Shown here one piece after another: positions 13,767-32,050 of a DNA stretch of 64,000 nucleotides. The DNA comes from a virus. The stretch is from positions 1-64,000 of the IMG/VR virus record IMGVR_UViG_3300042474_001633. The stretch is one strand, 5' to 3'. The position numbers were made by a program, and so were the translations under genes. Under the pieces are notes generated by a model. The model was not told the DNA's origin, did not search any database, and saw only the letters and a program-made list of their open reading frames with translations. Every line of letters starts with the position of its first letter. The first letter of the stretch is position 1.

Positions 13767-16700
13767 TGGCTGTGAGAATTCAGATAAGACGCGATACGGC
13801 CAGCAACTGGACCTCTACTAATACCGTTCTTGCTGATGGTGAAATTGGTCTCGAAACAAACACCAGCAAAATCAAAATTGGTAATGGCTCTACTGCTTGG
13901 AACTCTCTTTCCTACTTTGTCGGCCATCTGCCCGGAGCAACACTCGATGCGCTCGGCGACGTAAATATAACGAGTGTTTCGAATGGCGATTTTCTTCGTT
14001 ACAGCAGTTCTGCTTCAGCCTGGATTAATGACCCAGTAAACCTTTCAACCGACACGGTCGGAGACTATGTCCAGAGTCTGGTTGCTGGAACTGGCGTCAC
14101 CGTAACAAACAACTCTGGGGAAGGAACAACGCCGACAGTTGCTATCGGTCAGGCTGTTGGAACTTCTGCTTCTGTAACTTTTGCAAATGTAACAGCAGAC
14201 CTTGTCGGAGATGTTACTGGAAATTCCTCTACGGCAACGACACTTGAGACATCGCGAACAATCTCGCTTACTGGCGATGTGTCTGGTTCCGTATCATTCA
14301 ACGGCTCTTCTGACGCAAGCATTACTGCAACGATTCAGCCAAACTCTGTCACCCTCGGCACCGACACAACAGGGAACTATGTAAACGATGTAACCGCTGG
14401 AACTGGCGTTTCGGTTACACACACCCCTGGTGAGGGTTCAAGCCCAACCATCGCAATTGGTCAGGCAGTTGGAACTTCATCATCAGTGCAATTTGCTGCA
14501 GTTACTGCGCCGTTGGTTGGTAATGCCTCTACCGCAACCACCCTGGAAAATGCACGAACAATCTCTTTGGGTGGAGATGTCAGCGGCTCTGTTTCATTCA
14601 ATGGCTCTTCCGATGTGACGATTAACGCAACCGTACAGCCAAACGCTGTCACTCTCGGTACAGACACCACTGGAGATTATGTTTCATCCCTGGTTGCAGG
14701 AACTGGCGTAGCCCTCACCAATAATACTGGAGAGTCAGCAACCCCTACCGTCGCAATTGGTCAGGATGTTGGGACTTCTGCTTCGGTCACATTTGCCCAT
14801 GTCTCTGCTCCAATCACTGGAAATGTAACTGGAAATGTTACTGGAAGTTCAGGTTCTACCACTGGAAACGCTGCGACTGCAACCGCCCTACAAAACGCAC
14901 GCACCATATCACTTTCTGGTGATGTATCAGGTTCGGTTTCGTTTGACGGAACCAGCAACGTTTCAATTAGCGCAACAGTTGAGCCAAACTCGGTTGCGCT
15001 CGGTACCGATACAACTGGAAACTATGTCAATGACCTGACAGCCGGTACTGGTGTTTCGATAACCCACACACCCTCAGAGGGCTCAAGCCCAACCGTAGCC
15101 ATTGGTCAATCGGTAGCAACTAGCGCATCTGTAACTTTTGCAAAAGTTGATACAACTGGCGACATTACCGTTGGCGGAAACCTGACAGTAAACGGAACCA
15201 CAACCACTCTTAACACAGAGACGCTGGCGATTGAGGACAACATTGTTGTTCTGAACAGCAATGTCACTGGCTCACCAGCAACCAATGCTGGTATCGAAGT
15301 AGAGCGAGGCGACTCTGCAAATGTTGTTCTGCGCTGGAACGAGTCGACCGATAAGTGGGAAACCACCAATGATGGTTCTGCATATTCCGTAATTGCAACG
15401 AACGGAAACATTGCTCTAGGAACAGACACGACTGGCAACTATGTTAATGATTTGACCGCTGGAACGGGCGTTACTGTAACGCACACTCCTGGCGAAGGTT
15501 CTTCTCCAACGGTAGCAATCGGACAGGCTGTAGGAACCTCATCGTCGGTACAATTCGCTGCAGTTACCGCTCCATTAATTGGCAATGCCTCTACGGCTAC
15601 AACTCTTGCTACTTCACGAACAATTGAACTAACTGGCGATGTGTCTGGCTCTGTATCGTTTAACGGTTCCGCAGATGCAAGCATCTCGGCGACAATTCAA
15701 CCGAATTCGGTATCACTTGGCACCGACACAACTGGCAACTATGTTAATGATTTGACCGCTGGAACCGGCGTCACCGTAACTCATACACCTGGGGAAGGCT
15801 CAAGTCCGACCGTAGCAATTGGTCAGGATGTATCAGCATCGGTTGCTCCAACATTTGCTGGTTTGAATCTAAACGGAAGCATTGTTTTTGAAGGAGCAAC
15901 TGCCAACGAGTTTGAAACAACTCTTTCAGTCACTGACCCAACCGCAGACAGAACTATTACCTTGCCTGATGCATCAACGACTTTGGTTGGAACAGACACC
16001 ACTCAAACTCTTTCTAATAAAACACTTACTACTCCAACCATAAATGGACCAGAAATCACGGCTACTGGTGGGACTCCGAGAATTCATGGTATCTATCTTC
16101 CAGAACCACATTTCATTACATTTGAGGGTGCAACAACAGATGAGTTTGAAACAGTACTCACCGTTGTTAACCCAACTGCCGATAGAACCGTAAGCCTTCC
16201 CGATGCAAGCGGAACAGTTGCACTGAGTGGAACTATTGCTCTTGGAACGGACACCACTGGAAACTATGTAAACGACCTGACAGCGGGCACGGGCGTTACC
16301 GTAACGCACACACCAGGAGAAGGCTCCAGCCCGACCGTGGCTATTGGTCAGTCGGTAGCCACGAGCGCGTCCGTAACATTCGCTCATGTTTCGGCACCAG
16401 TAACTGGAAACGTTACCGGTGATGTTTCTGGAAATGCAGGAACCGCTACAGCACTACAAAACCCACGCGCGATTAGTCTTGGTGGTGACCTCAGTGGGTC
16501 AGTATCATTCAATGGAACATCCGATGTAACTATCACCGCAACAGTTCAACCAAATTCAGTAGCACTTGGGACCGACACATCTGGAGATTACGTTCAGTCG
16601 CTTGTCGCTGGTACTGGCGTAACACTTACCAACAACTCTGGTGAAACTTCTACCCCAACGGTAGCCATTGGACAAGCCGTTGGGACAAGCGCCTCGGTTA

Positions 16701-18583
16701 CATTTGCCAAAGTTGATACAACTGGCGATGTAGTTGTCGGTGGAAACCTTACGGTGAACGGAACAACGACCACGCTCAATACAGAAACACTCGCCGTTGA
16801 GGACAACATCATTGTTCTTAATAACGGCGTTACTGGCTCGCCGACAACAAATGCTGGGATTGAAGTTGAGCGCGGAACATCTGCAAATGTCGCTCTTCGC
16901 TGGAATGAGACATCGGATAAGTGGGAACTCACTGAAGATGGAGCCACATACAATGAAATCGCAACCAACGATGAGGTAAGTGCAATAACCATCTCCATAC
17001 TTGATGACATTGGTGATGTGTCTGCATCAGCAGCGGCTTCTGGCGACTTCCTCAAGTACAATGGCGCTGCGTGGGTCAACGACCCAATCAACCTAGGAAC
17101 AGACACTGTTGGAAACTATGTCGCTGATGTTGTTTCAGGTACGGGAATCACCATCTCGCACACCCCTGGAGAAGGTTCATCGGCATCTGTTGCCCTTAAC
17201 GCGACGCTGGATGACCTCAGCAATGTCACTGCTCCATCACCATCTGACGGAAACTTCCTCAAGTATGTTTCTGCTTCATCTGCATGGGTTCCTGCATCAA
17301 TTCCGACCATCAACGCTCTTGACGATATTGGCGATGTCTCTGCTGCAGCGCCGACAACTGGACACTTCTTGCAGTGGAACGGTACTGCATGGATTCCTGC
17401 TGCTGCTGGTGGGGCACTTACTACGACATCTATTACGACAACTTCTGCAACTGAAATTTTTTCATTCGACCCAACTTTACATGGAACCGCAGAAGTAACA
17501 TTACAAATTAAACAAGGTGCTAAAAAAACTTCATCTCGTGCATTGGTGAATCATGACGGTTCATCAACCGCCCTATTGACACAGTATGCAAAATTGGAAC
17601 ATGGTTCTCCAGTAATTCCAGTAACGCTTGCGGCAAATTACGATACACAAGGGTCTTGGACTACACGTACCTCAAACTTTGGCAATACACACATCGACTC
17701 CGTGGCTTACGGCAACAACCTCTGGGTTGCCGGTGGAAACTATGGTCAACTTCGCACCTCCACTAACGCAACAACTTGGACTACAAGAACGTCAAACTTT
17801 GGTAATACAGACATCAACTCCATCGCGTACGGCAACAACCTGTGGGTTGCTGCTGGAGACGCTGGTCAACTCCGTACATCCACAGACGCAATTACGTGGA
17901 CCACACGCACATCAGACTTTACGAATCAGTACGGTCCTACGAACATCTTCGCCGTTGCCTACGGAAACAGCCTTTGGGTCGCTGGTGGAGATTATGGTAA
18001 ACTTCGCACTTCAACCGACGCTATTACTTGGGATGAGCAAACCTCAAACTTTGGTAATACAGCCATCTTATCCGTCGCCTACGGGAACAATCTTTGGGTT
18101 GCTGGTGGCAATGATGGTCAACTTCGCACCTCGACCGACGCTATTACTTGGGTAACACGAACCTCAAACTTTGGCGTTTATACAATTACGTCCGTCGGTT
18201 ACGACAGCAACCTCTGGGTTGCTGGTGGTACTGCTGGTCTAATTCGTACCTCAACAGACGGTACAACTTGGACAACCAGAACATCTAACTTCCTTTTTAG
18301 CATCAAATCTATTGACTACGGCAACAACCTTTGGGTGGCTGCGGGGTATTACGGAGACATGCGTACCTCAACAGATGCAATAACTTGGGTAACACAAACT
18401 TCAAACTTTACTTCAACAATCCGCTCCGTCGCCTACGGCAACAGCCTCTGGGTTGCTGCTGGATATAGCGGTCAACTCAGAACATCTGTAGATTCAGATA
18501 AAGTTATAGTTACTGCAACTATTACAGACGCAAACGTAACTACTGCAACAAGTAAAGCAACTATCGTGTTGACGGAGGAATAG
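13766..18583 (+). CDS. Long tail fibre with Mtd-like N-terminus and C-terminal seven-bladed propeller
   Basis: 1605 residues. Residues 1-50 (IQIRRDTASNW, ADGEIGLETNTSKIKIGNGS) match the N-terminal domain of major tropism determinant-type fibres. The middle is about a dozen copies of a 70-90-residue module with LGTDTTGNYV, AGTGVTVTHTPGEGSSPT, VAIGQAVGTSASVTFA and SLSGDVSGSVSFNGSSD, common in environmental phage fibres. TTTTLNTETLAIEDNIVVLN occurs twice. The C-terminal 310 residues hold seven copies of a ~40-residue blade (WTTRTSNFGNT...YGNNLWVAGG...GQLRTSTDA). The blades lie between NHDGSSTALLTQYAKLEHG...IPVTLAAN and VIVTATITDANV, so the propeller looks inserted in a small fibre domain. Probable receptor-binding protein. 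Confidence 0.85.
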   Translation: MAVRIQIRRDTASNWTSTNTVLADGEIGLETNTSKIKIGNGSTAWNSLSYFVGHLPGATLDALGDVNITSVSNGDFLRYSSSASAWINDPVNLSTDTVGDYVQSLVAGTGVTVTNNSGEGTTPTVAIGQAVGTSASVTFANVTADLVGDVTGNSSTATTLETSRTISLTGDVSGSVSFNGSSDASITATIQPNSVTLGTDTTGNYVNDVTAGTGVSVTHTPGEGSSPTIAIGQAVGTSSSVQFAAVTAPLVGNASTATTLENARTISLGGDVSGSVSFNGSSDVTINATVQPNAVTLGTDTTGDYVSSLVAGTGVALTNNTGESATPTVAIGQDVGTSASVTFAHVSAPITGNVTGNVTGSSGSTTGNAATATALQNARTISLSGDVSGSVSFDGTSNVSISATVEPNSVALGTDTTGNYVNDLTAGTGVSITHTPSEGSSPTVAIGQSVATSASVTFAKVDTTGDITVGGNLTVNGTTTTLNTETLAIEDNIVVLNSNVTGSPATNAGIEVERGDSANVVLRWNESTDKWETTNDGSAYSVIATNGNIALGTDTTGNYVNDLTAGTGVTVTHTPGEGSSPTVAIGQAVGTSSSVQFAAVTAPLIGNASTATTLATSRTIELTGDVSGSVSFNGSADASISATIQPNSVSLGTDTTGNYVNDLTAGTGVTVTHTPGEGSSPTVAIGQDVSASVAPTFAGLNLNGSIVFEGATANEFETTLSVTDPTADRTITLPDASTTLVGTDTTQTLSNKTLTTPTINGPEITATGGTPRIHGIYLPEPHFITFEGATTDEFETVLTVVNPTADRTVSLPDASGTVALSGTIALGTDTTGNYVNDLTAGTGVTVTHTPGEGSSPTVAIGQSVATSASVTFAHVSAPVTGNVTGDVSGNAGTATALQNPRAISLGGDLSGSVSFNGTSDVTITATVQPNSVALGTDTSGDYVQSLVAGTGVTLTNNSGETSTPTVAIGQAVGTSASVTFAKVDTTGDVVVGGNLTVNGTTTTLNTETLAVEDNIIVLNNGVTGSPTTNAGIEVERGTSANVALRWNETSDKWELTEDGATYNEIATNDEVSAITISILDDIGDVSASAAASGDFLKYNGAAWVNDPINLGTDTVGNYVADVVSGTGITISHTPGEGSSASVALNATLDDLSNVTAPSPSDGNFLKYVSASSAWVPASIPTINALDDIGDVSAAAPTTGHFLQWNGTAWIPAAAGGALTTTSITTTSATEIFSFDPTLHGTAEVTLQIKQGAKKTSSRALVNHDGSSTALLTQYAKLEHGSPVIPVTLAANYDTQGSWTTRTSNFGNTHIDSVAYGNNLWVAGGNYGQLRTSTNATTWTTRTSNFGNTDINSIAYGNNLWVAAGDAGQLRTSTDAITWTTRTSDFTNQYGPTNIFAVAYGNSLWVAGGDYGKLRTSTDAITWDEQTSNFGNTAILSVAYGNNLWVAGGNDGQLRTSTDAITWVTRTSNFGVYTITSVGYDSNLWVAGGTAGLIRTSTDGTTWTTRTSNFLFSIKSIDYGNNLWVAAGYYGDMRTSTDAITWVTQTSNFTSTIRSVAYGNSLWVAAGYSGQLRTSVDSDKVIVTATITDANVTTATSKATIVLTEE
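17650..18490 (+). repeat. Seven beta-propeller blade repeats (about 120 nt each)
   Basis: Seven in-frame units starting at WTTRTSNF or close variants, each encoding a variable 4-8 residue segment, then VAYGNNLWVAGG and GQLRTSTDAIT. Invariant parts are similar at DNA level to the blades of the five other propeller genes in the window. Boundaries are approximate. Confidence 0.85.
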
Positions 18584-18585
18584 AC

Positions 18586-19812
18586 ATGGCCTTATCAAAT
18601 TTTGTAGTTAGTGAAAATGTTATTGCGGACAATTTGCCCTCATTTGACGAGGTCGCAGTTTCGGCATCTACAGTAACAACCATTTCATCTTTTAATAAAG
18701 ATGTTGCAGACAATGTTGAATTCACCGTAAAAGTCACACAGGGTATCCGCAGGTATTCATCGAAGTCCCTTGCGCTGCACGATGGTTCAACTGTTGATTT
18801 GGCTCAGTATGGGGAACTGTCGATTGCTGGCTATAATCCACCTAGCACTTGGACCACCCGAACTTCAAACTTTGGTAATACGACCATCCGCTCCGTCGCA
18901 TACGGAAATAACCTGTGGGTCGCTGCAGGTGGATATAGTCCCGTACTCGCCACATCCACAGACGCGGTCACATGGACCACACGAACATCAAACTTTGGTT
19001 CCTACAACATCAACTCTGTCGCCTACGGAAACTTATGGGTCGCTGGTGGGAACGAAGGTAGACTGCGCACCTCAACGGACGGAACAACTTGGACTACAAG
19101 AACTTCAAACTTTGGTAATACACACATCAAATCCGTCGCTTTTGGCAATAATCTATGGGTTGCGGGTGGATACTATGGTCAACTTCGTACATCAACAGAC
19201 GCAGTAACTTGGACAACCAGAACATCAAACTTTGGTAATACACACATCCTCGCCGTCGCTTATGGCAACAACCTCTGGGTCGCTTCTGGATACTCTGGAC
19301 AAATTCGTACCTCTACAGACGGAACAACCTGGACGACCAGAACATCCAACTTTGGTAATTCACGCATCCTCTCCGTTGCCTACGGAAACAACCTTTGGGT
19401 CGCTGGTGGGGATGGTAGTGAAGTAAGAACCTCAACCGATGCAGTAACTTGGACAACCAGAACATCAACCTTTTCTAGTAACAACAGTATTAAGTCCATT
19501 GCTTTTGGCGCCAGTTTCTGGGTTGCTGCTGGGTACAACAACGGTCAACTGTCTACCTCAAGCGATGCCATTACCTGGACCACACAAACCTCAAACTTTG
19601 GTAATACAAACATCCACTCACTCGCTTACGGCAATAATCTTTGGGTGCTTGGTGGTGGCTACGGTCAAATCCGCACATCAGCCGTAGCATCGATAGCAAT
19701 ACCACTGACACTCTCCGCTGACATTTCTGGTTCAGATGTTCGACTGCGTGCAACTATTACAGACGCGAATACATATGGTGCCACGGTAAAGGTGCTTAAG
19801 ACAGTCCTCTAG
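18586..19812 (+). CDS. Beta-propeller tail protein 2
   Basis: 408 residues from ATG 18586 (GGAGG 8 nt upstream, 2 nt after the previous stop). The N-terminal 85 residues (VVSENVIADNLP, VEFTVKVTQGIRRYSS, SLALHDGSTVDLAQYGELS) form the first half of a small tail domain. Seven blades follow (variable cores TTIR, YNIN, THIK, THIL, SRIL, NSIK, TNIH). The end returns to the small domain (IPLTLSADISGSDVRLRATI...TVKVLKTVL). One blade lacks a residue (YGNLWVAGG). It is probably an alternative or additional receptor-binding protein. There are no catalytic motifs of sialidases (no Asp-box S-X-D-X-G-X-T-W in full form), so binding rather than hydrolysis is inferred. Confidence 0.82.
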   Translation: MALSNFVVSENVIADNLPSFDEVAVSASTVTTISSFNKDVADNVEFTVKVTQGIRRYSSKSLALHDGSTVDLAQYGELSIAGYNPPSTWTTRTSNFGNTTIRSVAYGNNLWVAAGGYSPVLATSTDAVTWTTRTSNFGSYNINSVAYGNLWVAGGNEGRLRTSTDGTTWTTRTSNFGNTHIKSVAFGNNLWVAGGYYGQLRTSTDAVTWTTRTSNFGNTHILAVAYGNNLWVASGYSGQIRTSTDGTTWTTRTSNFGNSRILSVAYGNNLWVAGGDGSEVRTSTDAVTWTTRTSTFSSNNSIKSIAFGASFWVAAGYNNGQLSTSSDAITWTTQTSNFGNTNIHSLAYGNNLWVLGGGYGQIRTSAVASIAIPLTLSADISGSDVRLRATITDANTYGATVKVLKTVL

Positions 19813-19865
19813 TATTAAGTAGTATTATTTATTAAAACCATACACCTCGGGGAGAATGAACTGAG

Positions 19866-21173
19866 ATGGCTGATAAAAACTTCAAGGTAAAAAACGGCTT
19901 AGACATTGGCGACAGTAGGATAGAACCTACGACCACTTCGGTTACTACAAATAACGAAACAACTATTGCGACATTTGATAAATCAACAGCAAAATCCGCA
20001 GAGTTTATTGTCGAGGTCGGTCAAGGCGAACGAGCATATTCTGCAAAGGTTTTTACACTGCACAACGGAACGACTGCTGATTTTACAAAATACGGAGATT
20101 TATCATTTTCTGCTGTTGAATTAGACTTTACCACTGTTGGGATAACATGGACTACGCAACAATCAAACTTTGGAAGCAGCAACATCCGCTCCGTTGCTCA
20201 CGCCAACAACCTCTGGGTTGCTGCTGGAGATAGTGGCGCACTCGGCACATCAACCGATGCAATCACCTGGACCACAAGAACATCAAACTTTGAACCTAAT
20301 GTTATGGGCAACATCTTCTCCGTGGCATACGGCAACAGCCTTTGGGTTGCTGGTGGATACGGAGGTCAAATCCGTACCTCAACTGATGCAATCACCTGGA
20401 CGACGCAAACATCGAACTTTGGTAATACAACCATCCGCTCCGTTGCCTACGGAAATAATCTCTGGGTTGCGGGTGGACGCAGTGGTCAACTCAGAACTTC
20501 AACTGATGCAATTACTTGGACAACAAGAACCTCTAACTTCCCATCCAATTTTACTGGAGATATTTTCACCGTCTCATACGGTAACAACCTGTGGGTCGCT
20601 GGCGGATATTACGGTCAACTTCGTACCTCAACTGACGCAATAACCTGGACCACAAGAACATCAAACTTTGGTAATTACAACGTCCGCTCCGTTGCCTACG
20701 GAAATAATCTCTGGGTTGCTGGTGGAGAGGTTGGTGAACTCCGTACATCCACCGATGCAATCACTTGGACAACACGGACTTCCACCTTTGGTTATAGAAG
20801 AATTATTTCTGTCGCCTACGGCAATAACCTTTGGGTGGCTGCTGGCTACGATGGTCAAATCCGCACCTCAACCGACGCAATCACCTGGACTACTAGAACT
20901 TCAAACTTTGAAACTGATTCTATGGGCAACATCTTCTCCGTCGCCTATGGCAACAACCTTTTTGTTGCTGGTGGGAGATTTGGAAACCTCCGCACCTCTC
21001 TTCCAGGTAGTTCCTCGCGTTATGTCGGCGGTTTAACATCATCTGCATCAGCAACATTCAACGCCGATATATCAGGTTCCGATGTGCGTCTTCGTATTAC
21101 AATTCCTGATGCTGCAACAATGAACGCAACTGTTAATGTTTTGACAACAACCGTAGGAGAATCGCAATCATGA
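19866..21173 (+). CDS. Beta-propeller tail protein 3
   Basis: 435 residues from ATG 19866 (GGGGAG upstream, 12 nt spacing). It begins MADKNFKVKNGLDIGD, the start also used by the proteins at 24878 and 26992 and a motif frequent in environmental phage fibres. The first half of the small domain (EFIVEVGQGERAYSAKVFTL, HNGTTADFTKYGDLS) is followed by seven blades. Three of them have longer variable loops with a GNIF/GDIF core (for example EPNVMGNIFSVAY). The end is FNADISGSDVRLRITIPDA plus ATVNVLTTTV. It overlaps the next gene by 4 nt (ATGA), so both are co-translated. Likely receptor-binding. Confidence 0.82.
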   Translation: MADKNFKVKNGLDIGDSRIEPTTTSVTTNNETTIATFDKSTAKSAEFIVEVGQGERAYSAKVFTLHNGTTADFTKYGDLSFSAVELDFTTVGITWTTQQSNFGSSNIRSVAHANNLWVAAGDSGALGTSTDAITWTTRTSNFEPNVMGNIFSVAYGNSLWVAGGYGGQIRTSTDAITWTTQTSNFGNTTIRSVAYGNNLWVAGGRSGQLRTSTDAITWTTRTSNFPSNFTGDIFTVSYGNNLWVAGGYYGQLRTSTDAITWTTRTSNFGNYNVRSVAYGNNLWVAGGEVGELRTSTDAITWTTRTSTFGYRRIISVAYGNNLWVAAGYDGQIRTSTDAITWTTRTSNFETDSMGNIFSVAYGNNLFVAGGRFGNLRTSLPGSSSRYVGGLTSSASATFNADISGSDVRLRITIPDAATMNATVNVLTTTVGESQS

Positions 21174-22429
21174 CCGAAAAAAACTTTGTTGTTTCTAAAA
21201 ACATTGTGGCGCAGAACACCCCCGTCTTTAACCAAACCACTATCTCAACAGTATCAGAAACAACTATCGCCACATTCAATAGCACTGCCGCGGAATCTGC
21301 GGATTGTATTGTAAAAGTAGAACAAGGCAACCGCCGATTCTCTGGTAAATTACTTGTTGTTCATAATGGAACTACAGCAAATGCTACAAAGTACGGTGAC
21401 TCGTCTATTGCTGAAACAGCAGCGGGCTTGACAATTTGGACTACTAGAACCTCAAACTTTGGCGATACACAGCACCGCGCTGTCGCCTTTGGCAACAATC
21501 TCTGGGTTGCTGGTGGGTACTCGGGTCAAATCCGTACTTCTACCGACTCAATTACTTGGACAACCCGTACCTCAAACTTTGGGTTTGACATTATCCGCTC
21601 CGTTGCCTACGGCAATAACCTTTGGGTTGCTGGAGGTGGTTACGGTCAAATACGTACCTCAACCGACGCAACAACCTGGACTACCAGAACATCAAACTTT
21701 GGTAATACACGCACCCGCACCGTAGCCTTTGGCAACAATCTCTGGGTTGCTGGTGGGTACTCGGGTCAACTCCGTACTTCGACAGATGGCACCACTTGGA
21801 CAACACGGACCTCAAACTTTGGAGCCACAGCCATCCTTTCCGTCGCCTTTGGCAACAACCTGTGGGTTGCTGGTGGTAGTGCTGGTCAACTCCGAACCTC
21901 TACAGACGCTGTAACTTGGACCACAAGGACTTCGAACTTTGGTAATTATGGCATCAACGTCGTAGCCTACGGAAACAATCTTTGGGTTGCTGGTGCTGGT
22001 GGTGGTCGACTTCGGACATCGACTGACGGTACAACTTGGACCACAAGGACTTCGAACTTTGGTAATTATTCCATCGTCTCCGTTGCCTACGGAAACAACA
22101 TTTGGACGGCTGGCGGCAGCAACAATGAAATCCGCACCTCTACCGATGCAATAACTTGGACCACGAGAAACTTCAACGTTACTGGGTCAAATATAATCTG
22201 GTCCATCGCCTACGGCAACGGAGTTTGGGTCGCTGTATCTGGCAATGATATGCGCACCTCTCTTGGAGATAGTGCCGCATATTATGTCGGCGGTTTGACA
22301 TCTGCTCCATCGGTGACATTCAACGCCGATATATCAGGTTCCGATGTGCGCATTCGTATGGCAATTCCCGATGCCGACTCAAACAACGCAACTGTTAATG
22401 TTTTGACAACAACGGTAGCAGAATCGTAA
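21170..22429 (+). CDS. Beta-propeller tail protein 4
   Basis: 419 residues, starting in an ATGA overlap with the previous gene. The N-terminal half-domain (DCIVKVEQGNRRFSGKLLVV, HNGTTANATKYGDSS), seven blades (cores TQHR, DIIR, TRTR, TAIL, YGIN, YSIV, SNIIW) and a C-terminal half-domain (TFNADISGSDVRIRMAIPDA) follow the same plan as the previous protein. The last ~50 residues are nearly the same in both. Most amino-acid differences lie in the 4-6 residues before each AYGNN block, the expected surface loop of each blade. It is followed by 87 nt without a clear terminator, then a convergent gene. Confidence 0.82.
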   Translation: MTEKNFVVSKNIVAQNTPVFNQTTISTVSETTIATFNSTAAESADCIVKVEQGNRRFSGKLLVVHNGTTANATKYGDSSIAETAAGLTIWTTRTSNFGDTQHRAVAFGNNLWVAGGYSGQIRTSTDSITWTTRTSNFGFDIIRSVAYGNNLWVAGGGYGQIRTSTDATTWTTRTSNFGNTRTRTVAFGNNLWVAGGYSGQLRTSTDGTTWTTRTSNFGATAILSVAFGNNLWVAGGSAGQLRTSTDAVTWTTRTSNFGNYGINVVAYGNNLWVAGAGGGRLRTSTDGTTWTTRTSNFGNYSIVSVAYGNNIWTAGGSNNEIRTSTDAITWTTRNFNVTGSNIIWSIAYGNGVWVAVSGNDMRTSLGDSAAYYVGGLTSAPSVTFNADISGSDVRIRMAIPDADSNNATVNVLTTTVAES

Positions 22430-22516
22430 TCACTACTAAAAAAATAAAGGTATCTTGCCTAGATTTGGAATCAACAGCAATTATGAAAAAAGAAACAATA
22501 TTCCAATAGGTTCTTT

Positions 22517-23437
22517 TTAGATATTCTTAATAACCTGTTCCCACTGGTCTACAATTCTGTCCCATGAGTAAAAGTGATTAAAGTATCGTGACTGCTGTTT
22601 AAGCATGGGTTCATAATCCCAGTAGTTATCAATGGCTTGGTTTAGTGCAGAAGCGTATTTTTCTGCAATGCTTTTTTTATCAATCTGAATAGGAACCAGT
22701 GTCGCAAACTCTGCTCCAGTTTCAGCCAACGCCCCAAGATTCTGCCCGATAATTTTGCAACCAGCCGCACCAGCCTCAATCATCGCTAGGCAACAAGTTT
22801 CTTCAAACATGCTTGGGTAGGCAAAGATGTGTGCTTGCTGGAGAGCGGCAGTAACTTCGGTGTTTGGCGCGTACCCCATATAAAACACATTCTTCATGTT
22901 CTTTGCTCGCTCAAAAAGCGCCGTGTATTCACTGCCATGCTTTAGGTCGTAATCGGTGCCATAGACAATGGTTGATGAATAGACATAGAGTTCTACATCG
23001 TCACGGTCAAGCAACTCAAACGAGTCAAGCAATACATCTAGTCCACGGAAAGGCGCAGATGTATAGATGAGGCGAATCTTCTCGCCCTTCTTGCGCTGTT
23101 GGTATTCAACTGGCTCAATGGCGTTCTTAATTACATGTGCATTATCGACTGGGATATGGTACACATAGCGGAACTTCTCGTGCTGCCAGTGAGATACATA
23201 GACATAAGCATCGATGCAGCGGGTGAAGAATTTGTTGGTCATTCCCTGTGTTAGCGGCTCGTTGTAGTTGAGGTGCTGCCAAAGGATGTTCTTTTTGCTC
23301 ATGTCAATCTGGTCTTCAGTGCACCGTGAAAGAATAAGGTTGACATTGTAGTCATCAAAGTTAATCCTCTTACGGAGTCCATCTTCCATGATGTCCGAAC
23401 CTCCCCGTGGAGGAAGTTTGGCGCTCAACTCGGCCAT
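22517..23437 (-). CDS. GT-B glycosyltransferase (GT4-like)
   Basis: 306 residues. Motifs of GT4 enzymes: IYTSAPFRGLDVLLDSFELL at the start of the C-terminal Rossmann domain, VFYMGYAPNTEV, and FEETCCLAMIEAGAAGCKII (the E-X7-E signature, E near 215 and 223). The N-terminal acceptor domain is short compared with the usual 370-residue enzymes. It overlaps the upstream GT-A gene by 13 nt, so the pair is one operon. It is embedded, in opposite orientation, between propeller genes, which suggests its acceptor may be a fibre protein or the host glycan the fibres bind. The acceptor is inference. Confidence 0.85.
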   Translation of the reverse strand: MAELSAKLPPRGGSDIMEDGLRKRINFDDYNVNLILSRCTEDQIDMSKKNILWQHLNYNEPLTQGMTNKFFTRCIDAYVYVSHWQHEKFRYVYHIPVDNAHVIKNAIEPVEYQQRKKGEKIRLIYTSAPFRGLDVLLDSFELLDRDDVELYVYSSTIVYGTDYDLKHGSEYTALFERAKNMKNVFYMGYAPNTEVTAALQQAHIFAYPSMFEETCCLAMIEAGAAGCKIIGQNLGALAETGAEFATLVPIQIDKKSIAEKYASALNQAIDNYWDYEPMLKQQSRYFNHFYSWDRIVDQWEQVIKNI

Positions 23438-24096
23438 CGCAACTTCACTGTCTTTTGATGACCAACACGAACAAGTGGGTCAACCCAGATATCAATTCCC
23501 ATCTGGTGAACCTTTTCGCACCACGACAAGTCTTCTCCCATGAGCGGGAACTTGTACTCATCTTGACCAGTCTCTGGGTTCTGAACTGTCACATGTGTTG
23601 ACGAGAACCATGGGCGCGGAAGGCTCTCAAATACGCCAGAAGCAACTGCCAAGAAACCGAATCCAACTCCACGAGTGGTAAACGGCGCTTTGAGTTTTAA
23701 GATGTCATCTCGATGTAGAGGTGGTCCGAGTGGTACTGGGTAAACAGTGACCTCTTCGCTTTCCATCATGTAGCACCCAGAAATAACTTGCTTGTCTGAA
23801 TTCAGGAGCCTAAAGAAGTCATCTGGCTCCCACTCAATGTCGGAGTCAATCCAGAACAACTTGTCGTATGTCCATTCCCCATTGGCAGGCTTTTGGCATG
23901 TCTTGTCATTGAAGGCACTTCCACCCAGCGTGCGCTCTCTGGCGTCAGCGACATGCGAAGAATACTCCGTCATGAAGTTCCAGGTGATGTTGTTCTGGTT
24001 CATGTAATAGGTGACCTTTAGCAGGCTCCGTACATAAGACGGGGTCATGCTTGAGCCTGGTGTGCAGATAACTACATTGAAGTGTGGGATTGTCAT
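23425..24096 (-). CDS. GT-A-like glycosyltransferase
   Basis: 223 residues from ATG 24096. This start is preferred because TAGAAT lies exactly 7 nt before it and no Shine-Dalgarno is present; ATG 24105 is the alternative. Motifs: FNVVICTPGSSMTPSYVRSL, LFWIDSDIEWEPDDF (DxD), VGFGFLAVASGVFE and GEDLSWCEKVHQMGIDIWVD. It is a clear paralogue of 30499-31179 (PGRSMEAAYVRSL, FWIDSDISWTPSDF, GEDFSWC). There is no membrane segment. It heads the two-gene minus operon and is divergent from the methyltransferase at 24159. Confidence 0.85.
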   Translation of the reverse strand: MTIPHFNVVICTPGSSMTPSYVRSLLKVTYYMNQNNITWNFMTEYSSHVADARERTLGGSAFNDKTCQKPANGEWTYDKLFWIDSDIEWEPDDFFRLLNSDKQVISGCYMMESEEVTVYPVPLGPPLHRDDILKLKAPFTTRGVGFGFLAVASGVFESLPRPWFSSTHVTVQNPETGQDEYKFPLMGEDLSWCEKVHQMGIDIWVDPLVRVGHQKTVKLRWPS

Positions 24097-24103
24097 AAAA
24101 GCC

Positions 24104-24109
24104 ATTCTA
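24104..24109 (-). promoter_or_regulatory. Leaderless-type -10 (TAGAAT)
   Basis: TAGAAT on the minus strand, then GGCTTTT, then ATG 24096. The 7-nt spacer places the expected transcription start on the A of the start codon. Confidence 0.55.
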
Positions 24110-24145
24110 TACAGGATATATTGCAATACGGGCACCGATTTGTGT

Positions 24146-24151
24146 TACAAT
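24146..24151 (+). promoter_or_regulatory. Leaderless-type -10 (TACAAT)
   Basis: TACAAT, then TTGGTCT, then ATG 24159. It has the same 7-nt geometry as the divergent gene 63 bp away, and there is no Shine-Dalgarno between. Confidence 0.6.
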
Positions 24152-24158
24152 TTGGTCT

Positions 24159-24809
24159 ATGAAACTCCACGGAACTTACGCCTTTGATGAGGCTTTCGCA
24201 GCAACAATCTCCACAGCCCTGAATGCTTCGTATTCAGACAAGGCATCTGGTCATGGGTACGACAAGGTATTCGCCCACCTGTTTGAGGGTAAGACTGTGG
24301 ATAACTTTCTTGAAATTGGTTTATTTTTAAACGAACTTCAGCACACCGACCTCAATGCATGGGCTTCGGTATTCCCATCTGCGAACATCTACGGAGCAGA
24401 CAAGAAAGAGTCGCAATTGTTTAATTCTGGGAAAATCAGCACGCATGTTATTGACCAGGAAGTTGCAGCATCATTTGATGCCCTAAAGGCAGCCTTCGCT
24501 GTTGAATTTGATGTAGTCCTTGACGACGCATCGCACATCTACGCCAATACGGTCACTACATTTGAAGCGCTTTTCCCAGCGGTTAAGACTGGCGGAATGT
24601 ATCTGATTGAAGACATTCAAGACGCTGGCGCACACGCTAACGATTGGCAGCAAACGCTTGTCCAACTAGAAGCGTACATGACCGCAGAAGGACACACATA
24701 TGAGGTGTTTCAGTCGGCTGTTCCTCGAAAAGTCATGGACCGCGAAACTATGGAACCAACAGAAGAAGATGCGGTTTCTGATAGTTACATCCTCTGCGTT
24801 TATAAGTAA
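24159..24809 (+). CDS. SAM-dependent methyltransferase, TylF/CmcI-like
   Basis: 216 residues. Motifs SGHGYDKVFAHLFEGK, NFLEIGLFLNE (SAM motif I), IYGADKKES, FDVVLDDASHIYANTV and MYLIEDIQDAGAH match the group of 2751-3362, where the DD and ED acids bind a metal. Sugar hydroxyl methylation is the usual activity. It is transcribed alone on the plus strand between propeller genes, with a leaderless-type promoter. The next gene starts 68 nt downstream behind an RBS hairpin, so read-through into the propeller gene is possible. Confidence 0.8.
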   Translation: MKLHGTYAFDEAFAATISTALNASYSDKASGHGYDKVFAHLFEGKTVDNFLEIGLFLNELQHTDLNAWASVFPSANIYGADKKESQLFNSGKISTHVIDQEVAASFDALKAAFAVEFDVVLDDASHIYANTVTTFEALFPAVKTGGMYLIEDIQDAGAHANDWQQTLVQLEAYMTAEGHTYEVFQSAVPRKVMDRETMEPTEEDAVSDSYILCVYK

Positions 24810-24860
24810 AAAGAGAGTTTTACTATGTTGCTAATTTTAGGCGCGCGATTCAGTCTAGGT

Positions 24861-24877
24861 GAACGGAGTACCCGTTC
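24861..24877 (+). promoter_or_regulatory. Hairpin enclosing the ribosome binding site before propeller gene 5
   Basis: GAACGG (24861-24866), loop AGTAC (24867-24871), CCGTTC (24872-24877): a perfect 6-bp stem ending directly at ATG 24878. The only Shine-Dalgarno-like sequence (CGGAG) lies in the stem and loop. Loop and layout resemble the hairpin at 8589-8603. Confidence 0.5.
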
Positions 24878-26992
24878 ATGGCTGATAAAAACTTCAAGGT
24901 AAAAAACGGACTGAGCATTGGCGACAATGTCGCTACCTATGTCACAAAAGTTACAATTAACTCCAATAGCGAAACAACCCTTGACTCCGTTCTGACTGGG
25001 ACTGTAGAGTCAGTGGACTATTCATTGACCCTGTATCAGGGTGATGGAGCGATATTAAAGAAGTACCTATCAGTAGAAAACGGCTCTTCTGTTTCGGCAC
25101 ATGAATACGCATCTGGCAGTGTTAACAGAAGTGAATACTCTGGTGCATGGAACTGGACTACTCGCACCTCAAACTTTGGCAACACACACATCCGCTCCCT
25201 TGCCTACGGAAATAATTTATGGTCCGCTGGTGGGGAGTATGGCCAACTCCGCACATCCACCGACGGCACAACATGGACTACACAGACCTCAAACTTTGGC
25301 AACGCACCCATTTTGACCCTCGCCTATGGTAATAACCTTTGGGTTGCTGCTGCTACGTCGGGTGGACTCCGCACCTCTACCGATGCCGTTACTTGGACTA
25401 CGAGAACATCAAACTTTGGTGCATCGGGTGTTATTTGGTCAGTTGCAAACGGAAACAGTTTATGGGTTGCTGTTGGTCGATATGGAAATATCCGCACCTC
25501 GACTGATGGAATAACCTGGGTTACACGAACATCGAACTTTTCTAACACTGAAATCTACACCGTAGCCTTCGGAAACAGCCTTTGGGTCGCTGCTGGAAGT
25601 GGTGGCCAACTTCGTTCCTCGACAGATGCAGTAACGTGGACTACAAGAACATCAAACTTTGGTGATACACACATTATGTCCGTCGCATACGGCAACAGCC
25701 TTTGGGTTGCTGGTGGAGAGGCTGGGCAACTCCGCACATCCACCGACGGTACCACTTGGACCACAAGGACTTCAAACTTCGATACTGTAGGGCCTTCACG
25801 CATCCGCTCAATCGCCTACGGAAACAACCTTTGGGTTGCGGGTGGATACTATGGTGAACTCCGAACCTCTACCGATGCAATTGCCTGGACCACAAGCAAG
25901 ACCAACTTTGGAAATACACGAATCCGCGCCGTTGCTTACGGAAATAGCCTTTGGGTCGCTGCTGGGTACTCTGGTCAAATCCGCACCGCTGTCGATTTGA
26001 ACCCATCTGCGGCCGTTCCAGCAACAGTGTCAATAAGCCTGCAACAAACCTGGACAACCCGTACCTCAAACTTTGTTCATAATGTTTTTGGTATACAAAA
26101 CATCCGTTCGGTTGCCTACGGCAGTAACTTTTGGGTCGCTGTTGGAAATTATGGAACACTTCGTACATCAACTGATGCTGTTAGTTGGATTACACGTACA
26201 TCAGGATTTGGCAACACAGCCATTCACTCCGTCGCCTTCGGAAACAATCTTTGGGTTGTTGCTGGCACCAATGGTCTGCTCCGCACCTCGACCGACGAAA
26301 CTAGTTGGACCGCCCGCACATCAAACTTTGGTGCCACAACCCATATCAATTCAGTTGCCTTCGGAAATAGTTTGTGGGTCGCAGGTGGTCAGACTGGCCA
26401 ACTCCGTACATCCACAGATGCAATAACTTGGACCACTCGAACCTCGAACTTTGGTACTACACATATTAACTCCGTAGCCTTCGGAAACAGCCTTTGGGTC
26501 GCTGCTGGCTACAACGGTGAACTAAGAACTTCAACAGATGCTACAACCTGGACTACTAGAACCTCCAATTTTGGCACCACGCGCATCCAGTCCGTAGCCT
26601 TTGGCAACAGTCTGTGGGTTGCTGGTGGATATAATGGTCAACTGCGAACCTCAACGGATGGAACCACCTGGACCACTCGAACTTCAAACTTTGTTTCAAC
26701 AATCCTCTCAGTCACCTACGGCAACAACCTTTGGGTTGCTGGTGGTCGATATGGAAATATCCGTACCTCCACCGATGCAATTACCTGGGTTACACAAACA
26801 TCCAACCTTACAACAACCATCCGCTCCGTCGCCTACGGAAACAGCCTTTGGGTCGCTGCTGGGTACAACGGTCAAATCCGCACCGAAAACCCAGCAGAAA
26901 GAACGCTCAAATTAACGGCAACCGTTACTAGCGCAGGAGTAATTGGTTCTGAAGCAACAGCCATTTTAATTAAGGAAACTGTTGTGGCATAA
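24878..26992 (+). CDS. Double beta-propeller tail protein 5
   Basis: 704 residues. It starts MADKNFKVKNGLSIGDNV. A variant of the small domain (DYSLTLYQGDGAILKKYLSV, ENGSSVSAHEYASGSVNR) is interrupted by a seven-blade propeller (cores THIR, APIL, GVIW, TEIY, THIM, SRIR, TRIR). One strand follows (AAVPATVSISLQQ), then a second seven-blade propeller (QNIR, TAIH, THIN, THIN, TRIQ, STIL, TTIR), then LKLTATVTSAGVIGSEATAI. Two insertions in one host domain give a protein with two tandem discs. The stop overlaps the next ATG as TAATG. Probable receptor-binding protein. Confidence 0.82.
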   Translation: MADKNFKVKNGLSIGDNVATYVTKVTINSNSETTLDSVLTGTVESVDYSLTLYQGDGAILKKYLSVENGSSVSAHEYASGSVNRSEYSGAWNWTTRTSNFGNTHIRSLAYGNNLWSAGGEYGQLRTSTDGTTWTTQTSNFGNAPILTLAYGNNLWVAAATSGGLRTSTDAVTWTTRTSNFGASGVIWSVANGNSLWVAVGRYGNIRTSTDGITWVTRTSNFSNTEIYTVAFGNSLWVAAGSGGQLRSSTDAVTWTTRTSNFGDTHIMSVAYGNSLWVAGGEAGQLRTSTDGTTWTTRTSNFDTVGPSRIRSIAYGNNLWVAGGYYGELRTSTDAIAWTTSKTNFGNTRIRAVAYGNSLWVAAGYSGQIRTAVDLNPSAAVPATVSISLQQTWTTRTSNFVHNVFGIQNIRSVAYGSNFWVAVGNYGTLRTSTDAVSWITRTSGFGNTAIHSVAFGNNLWVVAGTNGLLRTSTDETSWTARTSNFGATTHINSVAFGNSLWVAGGQTGQLRTSTDAITWTTRTSNFGTTHINSVAFGNSLWVAAGYNGELRTSTDATTWTTRTSNFGTTRIQSVAFGNSLWVAGGYNGQLRTSTDGTTWTTRTSNFVSTILSVTYGNNLWVAGGRYGNIRTSTDAITWVTQTSNLTTTIRSVAYGNSLWVAAGYNGQIRTENPAERTLKLTATVTSAGVIGSEATAILIKETVVA

Positions 26993-29124
26993 TGGCTGAT
27001 AAAAACTTTAAAGTAAAAAACGGACTGAGCATTGGCGACAACGTCTCTACATACGTGACCAGTGTTGTAATCAACACTGGCGAAGAAACGACACTTGATT
27101 CTGTACTGACTGGCACAACGGAGTCTAATGATTATTCATTGACGATTTACCAGGGTGCTGGGGTTATCTCAAAAAAGATACTTGCAACGGAAAACGGCGC
27201 AGGAGCATCAACCCATGAGTATGGCTCGGTTTCTGTAAACAGAAGTGAATACTCTGGTGCATGGAACTGGACTACTCGCACCTCAAACTTTGGCATGACA
27301 GAAATCGCTGTACTCGCCTACGGTAACAACCTCTGGGTTGCTGGTGGATATGGCGGTCAACTCCGCACCTCTACCGATGCTACAACCTGGACGACCAGAA
27401 CCTCAAACTTTGGTAATACAGTTATTTACACTATTGCGTTCGGCAACAACCTCTGGGTTGCTGGTGGGTATCAAGGTTTTATTCGAACCTCAACTGATGC
27501 AATAACCTGGACGACACGAACATCGAACTTTATTGACGATGGTGGCAATACCGCCTATGCACGAGTACGCTCACTGGCTTATGCCAATGGCATATGGGTC
27601 GCTGGGGGTTACTACGGTCAACTTCGCACATCGACCGACGGTACCACTTGGACAACAAGAACTTCAAACTTTGGCAATCAACACATAAAATCCGTTGCCT
27701 TTGGCAATAATTTATGGGTTGCTGGTGGAGGTTACTCTCCTGGGCAAATCCGAACCTCCACCGACGGAACCACCTGGACAACACAAACTTCAAACTTCGG
27801 TTCAGGTTTAGCCATTGATACAGTCGCCTACGGTAATAACTTATGGGTTGCTGGTGGGTATGGTGGAGGAATTCGAACCTCAACTGATGCAATAACCTGG
27901 ACGACACGAACATCAAACTTTGGCACTACATTCATCCGCTCCATCTCCTACGGGAATGGTTTGTGGTTCGCAGTTGGAAGCGCTGGTCAAATCCGTAATT
28001 CGACTGACGGAATTACATGGACCACGCGCACCTCAAACTTTGGTGTTACAAACATCAACTCCATTGCTTACGGTAACAGTCTTTGGGTTTCTGGTGGTAT
28101 AACTGGCCAAATCCGTACCGCCAGTGAAATTAATACACCAGCGGCCATCCCAGTGACAACCTCAATTGTTCTAGGGCAAACCTGGACAACCCGCACCTCA
28201 AACTTTGGCAATACGTCAATTGAATCCGTGGCCTTCGGAAACAACCTCTGGGTTGCTGGTGGGTACACGGGCCAAATAAGAACTTCAACCGACGCAGTCA
28301 CCTGGACAACCAGAACCTCAAACTTTGGGAATACCCAAATCAAATCCGTCGCCTACGGCAACAACCTTTGGGTTGGTGTTGGTGGTGCTTTTGGGACTTC
28401 TGGTGAAATTCGTACATCAACTGATGCCGTCACTTGGACCACAAGAACATCCAACTTTGGAACTACGCGCATCCAGTCAGTAGCCTACGGGAACAGCCTT
28501 TGGGTGGCTGGAGGGGACACTGGTCAACTCCGTACTTCAACTGACGGTACAACCTGGACTACAAGAACATCAAACTTTGGTAACAGCGCCATATTCTCCG
28601 TCGCTTACGGCAATAACCTCTGGGTCGCTGGCGGAGACAGTGGTCAACTACGCACCTCAACCGACGGTACAACTTGGACGACACGAACATCAAACTTTGG
28701 CACTACATTCATCCGCTCCATCGCCTATGGCAATAACCTTTGGGTTGCTGGTGGCCATTATGGTCAACTCCGCACCTCCACCGACGGAACCACCTGGACA
28801 ACACAAACTTCAAACTTTGGTGGTACTACTCATATCATCTCCATTGCATACGGAAACAGTTTGTGGGTTGCTGCTGGTAATACTGGTCAACTTCGTACCT
28901 CAACAGACGCAATCACTTGGAACACCACCACTTCAAACTTTACAACAAGTATTCTCTCCGTCGCCTTTGGCAACAGCCTTTGGGTTGCTGCTGGACGAAC
29001 TGGTCAACTCCGCACAGAAAATCCAGCAGAGCGACAACTAAGACTCGCAGCAACCGTTACCAACGGCAATGTGGCTGGTTCGGAAGCAACAGCGATTCTA
29101 AAGAAAAAAACGGTTGTTGCATAA
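26992..29124 (+). CDS. Double beta-propeller tail protein 6
   Basis: 710 residues, coupled to the previous gene by TAATG and near-identical to it in plan. N-terminus MADKNFKVKNGLSIGDNV, first propeller with seven blades (one has a long insert, FIDDGGNTAYARVRSLAY), strand AAIPVTTSIVLGQ, second propeller with seven blades, end LRLAATVTNGNVAGSEATAI. The pair at 24878 and 26992 is a recent tandem duplication with divergence focused in the blade loops. It ends 2 nt before a convergent glycosyltransferase, so there is no room for an intergenic terminator. Confidence 0.82.
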   Translation: MADKNFKVKNGLSIGDNVSTYVTSVVINTGEETTLDSVLTGTTESNDYSLTIYQGAGVISKKILATENGAGASTHEYGSVSVNRSEYSGAWNWTTRTSNFGMTEIAVLAYGNNLWVAGGYGGQLRTSTDATTWTTRTSNFGNTVIYTIAFGNNLWVAGGYQGFIRTSTDAITWTTRTSNFIDDGGNTAYARVRSLAYANGIWVAGGYYGQLRTSTDGTTWTTRTSNFGNQHIKSVAFGNNLWVAGGGYSPGQIRTSTDGTTWTTQTSNFGSGLAIDTVAYGNNLWVAGGYGGGIRTSTDAITWTTRTSNFGTTFIRSISYGNGLWFAVGSAGQIRNSTDGITWTTRTSNFGVTNINSIAYGNSLWVSGGITGQIRTASEINTPAAIPVTTSIVLGQTWTTRTSNFGNTSIESVAFGNNLWVAGGYTGQIRTSTDAVTWTTRTSNFGNTQIKSVAYGNNLWVGVGGAFGTSGEIRTSTDAVTWTTRTSNFGTTRIQSVAYGNSLWVAGGDTGQLRTSTDGTTWTTRTSNFGNSAIFSVAYGNNLWVAGGDSGQLRTSTDGTTWTTRTSNFGTTFIRSIAYGNNLWVAGGHYGQLRTSTDGTTWTTQTSNFGGTTHIISIAYGNSLWVAAGNTGQLRTSTDAITWNTTTSNFTTSILSVAFGNSLWVAAGRTGQLRTENPAERQLRLAATVTNGNVAGSEATAILKKKTVVA

Positions 29125-29126
29125 TT

Positions 29127-29783
29127 TTAGTTAAATAAATCGTTGTCAATTCTTCGCTGCAGGCTGTATTGGCCAGCATCTTTTGCTCCAGGAGAATTAA
29201 ACTTTTCCTGCCAGTATTTATAGTTTGACTCGTTTGTCGAAATATTGCGGCTAAACAGTTCTTGAGTATCCTGAATAGTAGTTGCTGCACCATACGCAAT
29301 GACATTGATGTCTGCGCTTACCGATGAGCCTCTCAATCCGAGCCTGTCCATCCGAGCCTCGTAGTCGTTGTCTTCATAGTATGCAGGGTGGTAGTTCTCA
29401 TCAAAGAGTCCAACGGTTTTTACAATGTTTCTACCGATAGAGAAAGAAGACCACGCCTGAGATGTCTTAATAAGAACATCTGGACTTGATTTATCCGCAA
29501 GTTTTTGTAGTTCTCCTGGAGCGTACTTTATGTCGTTTGAAGCAACAACCCAATATGGCGCAAAAGGGAATGACTTAATCCCGAGGTTCCACGAGCCAGC
29601 AACACCTAGATTCGCTGGCATATTGAGAACAGTTGCCTTGCCGCCGTATAGACCAGAAGGCATCGAGTATTGCCCGCTGTTATCGATTACAAGCAAATGC
29701 TCAACCGCGCAATCAATTGACGAGATGCACTCTTCAAGCAAATCAAACCTATTGAGTACTGGGATTATTACTGCTGGAATCAC
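29127..29783 (-). CDS. GT2-family glycosyltransferase
   Basis: 218 residues. Classic GT-A order: AVIIPVLNRFDLLEECISSI, LVIDNS (strand with Asp), MPANLGVAGSWNLGI, WVVASNDIKY (DxD equivalent) and NYHPAYYEDNDYEARM (ED acid motif). The sequence resembles rhamnosyl/galactosyl-type transferases of surface polysaccharides. No membrane anchor is visible. It overlaps the upstream gene by 4 nt and is last in a minus operon that begins with the sulfotransferase at 32023. Confidence 0.88.
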   Translation of the reverse strand: MIPAVIIPVLNRFDLLEECISSIDCAVEHLLVIDNSGQYSMPSGLYGGKATVLNMPANLGVAGSWNLGIKSFPFAPYWVVASNDIKYAPGELQKLADKSSPDVLIKTSQAWSSFSIGRNIVKTVGLFDENYHPAYYEDNDYEARMDRLGLRGSSVSADINVIAYGAATTIQDTQELFSRNISTNESNYKYWQEKFNSPGAKDAGQYSLQRRIDNDLFN

Positions 29784-32023: not shown

Positions 32024-32030
32024 GCCTGGT

Positions 32031-32038: not shown

Positions 32039-32050
32039 CGCATTACGCTT

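Follow-up and report, generated by a model that had tools for sequence, protein, structure and literature searches.

The DNA stretch analysed here (the window) comprises bases 1–64,000 of the 160,282-bp virus record IMGVR_UViG_3300042474_001633, and six of its genes, all on the plus strand and named here by their first positions (13766, 18586, 19866, 21170, 24878, and 26992), span positions 13766–29124 and encode proteins with seven-bladed propellers. The flanks of the single-disc proteins 18586, 19866, and 21170 are firmly identified as the halves of one small fibre domain (the dock), within which the propeller (the disc) is nested at a loop designated site A. The explanation that best accounts for the results, and that we consider probable, is that the six genes encode modular nested-disc adhesins, the discs of which diverge independently of their docks. 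In this scenario, each of these small phage adhesins would be a rack for one or two discs. A β-domain of approximately 100 residues and eight predicted strands may be carried either on a short anchor of KNFxVKNGL type at the N-terminus or on a long fibre of Mtd_N type. At site A, the propeller would occupy the loop that links strands 5 and 6, and at a second site, site B, it would replace the turn between strands 6 and 7.

The initial annotation had described six proteins with eight seven-bladed propellers, and the blade count bore this out: the six genes encode 7, 7, 7, 7, 14, and 14 blades, respectively, and the 56 blades, each of approximately 40 residues, fall into arrays of seven in eight of eight cases. 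The first array starts at 17657, and all arrays share one register, starting with the W of a WTTRTSNF-type strand and ending after an RTS/RTA/RTE strand. The arrays are far above chance, and the repeat family D6 comprises 47 copies of 61 nucleotides (nt), spaced mostly by 120 nt. Each disc has one outer D strand first and three strands last, ending with strand C, and such an arrangement is the usual self-closure of a propeller; the disc would thereby close on itself and leave the dock at the side of the CD loops. In the structure model of the 18586 protein, the strand sets assigned by DSSP recur over residues 89–366, and the best 50 of 1761 Foldseek matches with the model are all propellers by name, including Ycf48 and the designed seven-bladed 7big. 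Among the six proteins, Pfam DUF6242 is over its cut-off only in 26992 (41.3 versus 29 bits), with 24878 just under it (27.6), and Kelch_1 exceeds the Pfam cut-off in four of the six. The 13766 protein, which consists of 1605 amino acids (aa), has Mtd_N at its N-terminus (expectation value [E] 1.3e-13) and matches tail-fibre families.

The dock exists as an uninterrupted domain in other phages. Scanning viral contigs with the joined flanks of six single-disc site-A proteins returned 42 loci (numbered with the prefix L), three of which are propeller-bearing contigs (L053–L055). The joined-dock profile matched 35 of the remaining 39 loci, in which the matched stretch is free of a propeller; L089, L091, L092, and L094 were below the threshold, and L074/L075, L084, and L087 matched part of the model only. 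The joined half-domains thus match intact tail domains that lack propellers. In Synechococcus phage S-SRM01 (QPX48298.1), the whole dock domain is located at the C-terminal end of a protein of 1540 aa, which carries the annotation hypothetical or baseplate wedge. Matches of intact copies by tblastn covered 36–75% of the query in S-SM2, S-TIM5, DSL-LC02, S-CAM7, S-SCSM1, and other phages, and the matched place is annotated as tail fibre in 6 of 11 and 8 of 16 phage records for the two queries. The dock copies of L071 match phrog_967 ("baseplate wedge tail fiber protein connector") at positions 409–496. By profile and pairwise match, the C-terminal tail-fibre domain of S-SRM01 and other cyanophages and marine phages is the same as the dock; unlike the docks in the window, the S-SRM01 domain and the copies in the matched loci, over the stretch compared, are uninterrupted. 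Other searches added little: two joined docks matched no Pfam family at E 1, joined docks alone found little in Pfam, PHROGs, and phage records, S-SRM01 being the sole phage-record match, the dock profile gave nothing credible among PDB sequences (best E 0.72), and the Foldseek matches listed for the dock fold were dominated by the propeller.

A profile of 103 positions built from 20 propeller-free domains of other phages was run on 15 docking proteins. In eight of eight single-disc site-A proteins, it matched both halves in order, with the propeller at the junction. The N part ended at model positions 64–72 (83 in 18586, where it extends into the disc), and the C part began at 60–67. The proposal that the flanks are the N- and C-terminal halves of one small fibre domain is therefore borne out for the single-disc proteins, and the assignment of 18586, 19866, and 21170 to site A is upheld by the break of the profile at one model place. 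The best relatives with an empty site are L139 (870 aa), the C-terminal end of which is HDGTTANISEYGVIELGGTRIPLTLSATISGTDVLLQATITDADTTNATVEVVRTAIVL, and L137 (222 aa), which ends similarly; both have an N-terminal Mtd_N, as does 13766. The N-flank of 18586 scored 118 against L139, compared to 38.9 ± 4.8 in shuffles (0 of 400), and on L139 this match ends at residue 835 and the match of the C-flank begins at residue 832. Two motifs proposed as marks of the dock were found in some of the proteins only. The C-half motif of ADISGSDVRLRATI type follows the propeller in three of the six proteins, as ADISGSDVRLRATI exactly in 18586, ADISGSDVRLRITI in 19866, and ADISGSDVRIRMAI in 21170, and is absent in the other three. 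The marker strand IPLTL/IPVTL is literally present in 18586 and 13766 and is replaced elsewhere, by SATF/SVTF in 19866 and 21170 and by VPATV and IPVTT in the double-disc proteins (doubles). The parts of the six proteins are as follows.

17411–17635, plus strand: 13766, N-half of the dock through the IPVTLAA strand (propeller-free profile, residues 1219–1290, model 5–73, E 1.6e-12)
17657–18496, plus strand: 13766, seven-bladed propeller, probably at site B (blade count; identical copy in L009)
18497–18580, plus strand: 13766, probable C-half of the dock, KVIVTATITDANVTT... (pairwise matches with L139 and L137; alone not significant with the propeller-free profile)
18640–18825, plus strand: 18586, N-half of the dock, strands at residues 19–80 (model, propeller-free profile, and pairwise match)
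18850–19689, plus strand: 18586, seven-bladed propeller at site A (blade count and model)
19690–19809, plus strand: 18586, C-half of the dock, IPLTLSADISGSDVRLRATI... (score 119 versus 34.0 ± 4.2 against L139, 0 of 400 shuffles)
19926–20132, plus strand: 19866, N-half of the dock (propeller-free profile)
20148–21008, plus strand: 19866, seven-bladed propeller at site A (blade count)
21009–21170, plus strand: 19866, C-half of the dock (propeller-free profile and pairwise match)
21233–21415, plus strand: 21170, N-half of the dock (propeller-free profile)
21437–22270, plus strand: 21170, seven-bladed propeller at site A (blade count)
22271–22426, plus strand: 21170, C-half of the dock (propeller-free profile and pairwise match)
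24935–25138, plus strand: 24878, N-half of the dock (propeller-free profile, E 4.8e-6; hhalign 94% for the N-halves of five doubles)
25154–25996, plus strand: 24878, first seven-bladed propeller, read as site A (blade count)
25997–26050, plus strand: 24878, middle strand AAVPATVSISL (position only; best score marginal, L137, 17 of 400 shuffles)
26051–26899, plus strand: 24878, second seven-bladed propeller, putative site B (blade count)
26900–26989, plus strand: 24878, C-terminal piece, putative C-half of the dock (right register with the other doubles, P 0.06–0.1; no significant pairwise match)
27049–27252, plus strand: 26992, N-half of the dock (likeness to 24878; the same hhalign 94% for five doubles)
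27268–28125, plus strand: 26992, first seven-bladed propeller, read as site A (blade count)
28126–28182, plus strand: 26992, middle strand AAIPVTTSIVL (position only; no significant match)
28183–29031, plus strand: 26992, second seven-bladed propeller, putative site B (blade count; 48-nt run identical with the first disc)
29032–29121, plus strand: 26992, C-terminal piece, putative C-half of the dock (position only; marginal L137 match, 19 of 400, one strand early at 186–197 of 222)

Structure prediction, which the initial annotation had put forward as a check, gave a divided outcome. The AlphaFold prediction for 18586, built with five relatives, yielded five models ranging from 83.5 down to 67.3, the best having a mean predicted local distance difference test score (pLDDT) of 83.5 and a predicted template modelling score (pTM) of 0.73. 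Confident strands, mostly with pLDDT 85–94, stand on both sides of the propeller at residues 89–366, namely 19–25, 31–37, 43–52, 55–65, and 70–80 before the disc and 374–381, 384–391, and 399–407 after it; the flanks of 24878 failed. Together with the homologues that have an empty site, the confident strands suggest that the eight flank strands of 18586 pack as one domain.

Divergence was compared among 19 discs, which are carried by 14 docking proteins from four viruses (the window, L010, L011, and L023), all 19 arrays being seven-bladed. The double at L023 10455–12650, the arrays of which read as 6 and 5+1 blades, was excluded from the disc and Mantel tests, and L009 and subsequent loci on its contig did not count as a separate virus, the propeller genes agreeing with those of the window where compared. 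The dock halves co-diverge as one unit, and the discs diverge independently of the docks: the identities of N- and C-halves in the 14 proteins were correlated despite one or two intervening discs (Mantel r = 0.851, 0 of 5000 permutations), and dock and disc identities gave r values of −0.219, −0.100, −0.227, and −0.110. The eight single-disc site-A proteins by themselves gave a like pattern in weaker form, with r values of −0.428 between N-half and disc and −0.093 between C-half and disc. Disc identity was 0.662 for the same site (93 pairs) and 0.666 for different sites (78 pairs), with a null standard deviation of 0.009, indicating no site effect. Within a virus it was 0.679 (47 pairs), compared to 0.658 between viruses (124 pairs; 19 of 5000), and the effect of dock class on disc likeness was negative (−0.010, 4701 of 5000). 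The discs may thus be passengers, more similar to their companions in one genome than to those that occupy equivalent docks in different viruses. The notion that discs are interchangeable between the two loops gains from the lack of site preference, though no actual swap of a disc between docks was seen, and interchangeability would be an evolutionary reading of these patterns.

Several results weigh against the preferred explanation. In the eight single-disc site-A proteins, the correlation between N- and C-halves was modest (r = 0.355, 200 of 5000). The phylogenetic signal of the propellers is low (split-half r of approximately 0.30, 0.10–0.48 over ten splits) and synonymous sites are near saturation (proportion of synonymous differences [pS] 0.61 across all blade pairs); lost signal could therefore account for some of the decoupling of dock and disc. 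Blade position also carries a weak signal (0.664 versus 0.655 with the blade order shuffled, 0 of 1000), and the blades are therefore not freely shuffled. The low split-half correlation, the saturation, and the blade-position signal would also suit a scenario in which the nesting is real and the discs are not exchanged, scaffold constraint and loop saturation making all blade pairs approximately 67% identical; mean blade identity is indeed nearly equal within a disc (0.673), between discs of one virus (0.668), and between viruses (0.650). However, DNA runs identical between blades of the window reach 48 nt, compared to 31.0 ± 3.0 nt expected when synonymous codons are shuffled within columns (0 of 60), and this scenario also has to face the virus effect and the negative dock-class effect given above; we regard it as possible but somewhat unlikely. 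The longest run (48 nt) joins the two discs of 26992, and a 37-nt run joins those of 24878; among the 12 longest runs, eight lie within one gene, two of these between the two discs of that gene, and four lie between genes. The identical runs are consistent with local blade exchange or duplication. Under the preferred explanation of nested discs diverging independently of docks, blades may be exchanged among discs within a genome, in keeping with the long identical runs. As a tentative extension, a two-slot rack with a pool of at least eight discs (56 blades) that exchange sequence might reshuffle approximately 49 variable residues per disc among fixed anchors, which would be recombination-driven diversification of host range without a retroelement or an invertase.

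Variation is concentrated in a few positions of the blade. In an alignment of 54 blades, from which two linker-adjacent blades were omitted, seven columns (17–19, 21, 41, 42, and 44) were strongly variable. By the strand map of 18586, columns 17–19 are in the D–A loop, column 21 is at the start of strand A, and columns 41, 42, and 44 are in the B–C loop. The D–A and B–C loops of a β-propeller share one face, and the A–B and C–D loops are on the opposite face. The ratio of the proportions of nonsynonymous and synonymous differences (pN/pS) was 0.91 for the variable columns, compared to 0.22 for the scaffold; values above 1 occur in columns 19 and 21 and, at such saturation, do not prove positive selection. 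Entry and exit of the disc at the C–D side would place its conserved face on the dock and turn its variable face outward. The approximately 49 variable residues per disc may then bind a ligand on the host surface, possibly a glycan, in a multivalent manner. Receptor binding and a location on the virion are inferred from context, namely the tail-fibre family matches of 13766 and the tail sheath and portal genes nearby, and a multivalent glycan-type ligand is likewise putative.

The discs could instead be enzymes of sialidase or glycoside-hydrolase type, or structural spacers, rather than receptor binders. The CD loop S-T-D-G-T-T-W is, in our view, similar to the Asp-box found in sialidases, which would favour an enzyme. 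Phage endosialidases have propellers, according to a published account (PMC4901313). Nevertheless, no enzyme family reached the Pfam cut-off in the six proteins, the conserved residues look structural, and variability in the loops of one face would be unusual for a conserved active site, making this alternative unlikely.

The 13766 disc probably lies at site B, and the support that sequence comparison gives to its placement after the IPVTL strand, as first proposed, is fairly good. The N part of the propeller-free profile reaches model position 73, through IPVTLAA, and the disc would therefore be inserted one strand later than at site A, at the place of the ISGTD turn of L139. The 13766 protein and both doubles are without the ADISGSDVRLRATI-type turn and have KVIVTATI, LKLTATV, and LRLAATV, respectively, after the last disc, a pattern expected if the disc were inserted within that turn. 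The C-flank of 13766 matched L139 at 845–860 (score 49 versus 35.0 ± 3.9, 1 of 400 shuffles) and L137 at the equivalent place, 197–212 (0 of 400), and its middle strand fell at 832–838 of L139 (140 of 400) and at the same place of L137 (1 of 400). With hhalign, the middle and C pieces aligned in the right register (P 0.0015, probability 16.8%). Other comparisons of the C-flank gave the right place in L103 without significance (124 of 400) and a different place in L056. Against this placement, the C-flank matched S-SRM01 at the wrong place at 3 of 400, indicating that such scores arise by chance, and 13766 is the only single-disc site-B protein known; a scan with its joined flanks (at least 599 stretches) confirmed only the L009 contig among the matches listed, and more may exist.

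The order of parts suggests that the doubles carry one disc at each site, as first proposed. Sequence matches extend to the N-halves, which together gave an hhalign probability of 94% in five doubles, but not convincingly to the middle and C pieces. Among six doubles, the propeller-free profile matched the N-half only in four (E 5.7e-7, 4.8e-6, and 5e-6; weak in L011 13864), and 26992 and L023 10455 had no match at E 10. The middle and C pieces aligned by hhalign in the right register with an unconvincing P of 0.06–0.1, and the best pairwise results, both against L137, were 17 of 400 and, out of register, 19 of 400. The AlphaFold model of the double 24878 has a pLDDT of 68.5 and a pTM of 0.49, with residues 1–95 and 681–704 below 50. 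All these points tell against the two-site reading of the doubles, though so poor a model is uninformative on their architecture. They could be turned into an argument for a linear architecture, in which the N-flank is an anchor and the C-flank a separate cap or trimerization tail, with the propeller between them and no nesting: in the double-disc model, the flanks do not come together in one fold, the C-terminal pieces of doubles have no convincing matches, and the profile missed 26992 wholly. A linear architecture is nevertheless quite improbable, as propeller-free relatives hold both halves contiguous in one domain of approximately 100 aa and the halves co-diverge over the 14 proteins.

A diversity-generating retroelement that targets the blades, in the manner known from Mtd, would fit the Mtd_N on 13766 and the few variable columns but is hardly tenable as the source of the variable loops, as variation runs over the 54 aligned blades with synonymous changes throughout. 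Such an element was rejected as a candidate: no reverse transcriptase (PF00078) was found at E 1 in the 160,282-bp record, which is possibly incomplete, and the controls matched in 4 of 14 genomes.

Phage fibres are generally seen to exchange modules end to end. In the nested-disc proteins, a small fibre domain encloses entire ring-shaped domains, with either of two loops as the probable place of insertion, and the carrier diverges independently of its passenger. The dock is a natural scaffold that tolerates insertions of approximately 280 residues, and the system allows a direct test of host-binding diversification by exchange of nested, self-closing discs. It could also shed light on the host attachment of uncultured viruses that probably infect freshwater actinobacteria. 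Both the occurrence of propellers in receptor-binding proteins of phages and the dock-type fibre domain, as a cyanophage sequence, are already known. In the titles and abstract openings of the papers listed from the open-licence literature, no description of a propeller nested in a fibre domain was found, and within that scope the nesting at either of two loops, combined with independent divergence of dock and disc, is apparently new.

Known propellers differ from the window discs in setting. The biofilm adhesins Bap1 and RbmC of Vibrio cholerae have a nested propeller architecture in which a prism is inserted into the propeller, the reverse arrangement. The propellers of Ycf48, BNR, and DUF6242 have the same blade type as the window discs; Ycf48 is a photosystem assembly factor, unlike these discs. 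The stand-alone propeller gene of phage DSL-LC01 (WJZ48562.1) covers 75% of the 18586 query at 41.6% identity and has no dock flanks. In PMC4901313, the receptor-binding protein (RBP) of Staphylococcus phage phi11 (Gp45) is described as having a propeller closed by an N-terminal strand and three C-terminal strands, the same type of closure in a protein of the same role as that proposed here; it differs in having five blades and in standing linearly between coiled-coil stem and tower domains, whereas the window discs are seven-bladed and nested. The same paper describes gp131 of Pseudomonas phage PhiKZ (4GBF) as a suspected receptor binder at the baseplate periphery with a C-terminal seven-bladed propeller, which by this description shares the blade number with the window discs, and places PRD1 P2 among phage RBPs with propellers (PMC4901313).

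The disc type also occurs outside the dock. The protein at L013:5823–10985 (1721 aa) has five tandem seven-bladed propellers with linkers of 42–87 residues. A second short carrier, within which the same disc type is nested, is found in L012, L019, L022, L028, and L113, with flanks of approximately 48–73 and 18–26 residues and the motifs MNKG...GEV...SPG.GW...DG before the disc and ...W[IV]K after it. Some copies are similar by eye to the tail-collar domain; PF07484 did not support this identity, matching 0 of 12 records at E 1 (controls, 9 of 14). Six joined flanks of this carrier matched no Pfam family at E 1, and no propeller-free version was found among the loci examined. In L103, intact dock and propeller proteins are separate genes of one virus. 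The baseplate wedge initiator of Synechococcus phage DSL-LC03 (L052) has propeller-like repeats between two GGFGY/PGFGY-type repeats, and that of S-SSM7 also matches the 18586 structure model. Near the intact dock gene of S-SRM01, L049:5774–6808 (QPX48300.1) encodes a different repeat protein, DGTLWTWG...GQLGNNTTT, similar in appearance to an RCC1-type propeller. In a genome bin of an uncultured actinobacterium, the protein at L145:3860–6292 has a propeller of the same type (42% identity, seven blades), preceded by an apparent signal peptide and followed by apparent leucine-rich repeats; a cellular source or a shared type of ligand is possible.

As for the genome context, a family search found tail sheath, terminase, and portal families encoded in the window. 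The portal matched 1445 phage records, and the nearest among the best 15 are actinobacterial phages, such as Streptomyces phage Gilgamesh and Gordonia phage GMA6; by this kinship, the large uncultured virus is probably a contractile-tailed phage of a (freshwater) actinobacterium. The named phage with the closest propeller is Actinomycetia phage DSL-LC01 (three records matched), the lake origin of which is in keeping with an actinobacterial host, short of proof. Immediately upstream of the fibre genes, positions 8605–13110 encode a 1501-aa protein of repeats such as SSNNSVLYSNIRTAQGSGSATAGDEA, which matches phrog_23524 (function unknown) with E 9.5e-170. Among and after the adhesin genes, the window regions 22517–24809 and 29127–33163 hold glycosyltransferase (PF00534, PF00535, and PF13692), DUF6065, and sulfotransferase (PF13469) genes, as well as methyltransferase-like genes below the Pfam cut-off. 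The glycosyltransferase, sulfotransferase, and methyltransferase-like neighbours suggest a glycan-rich interface, short of proof. Genes similar by eye to these neighbours flank the propeller genes in L012, L019, and L022 and the intact-dock genes in L137 and L139.

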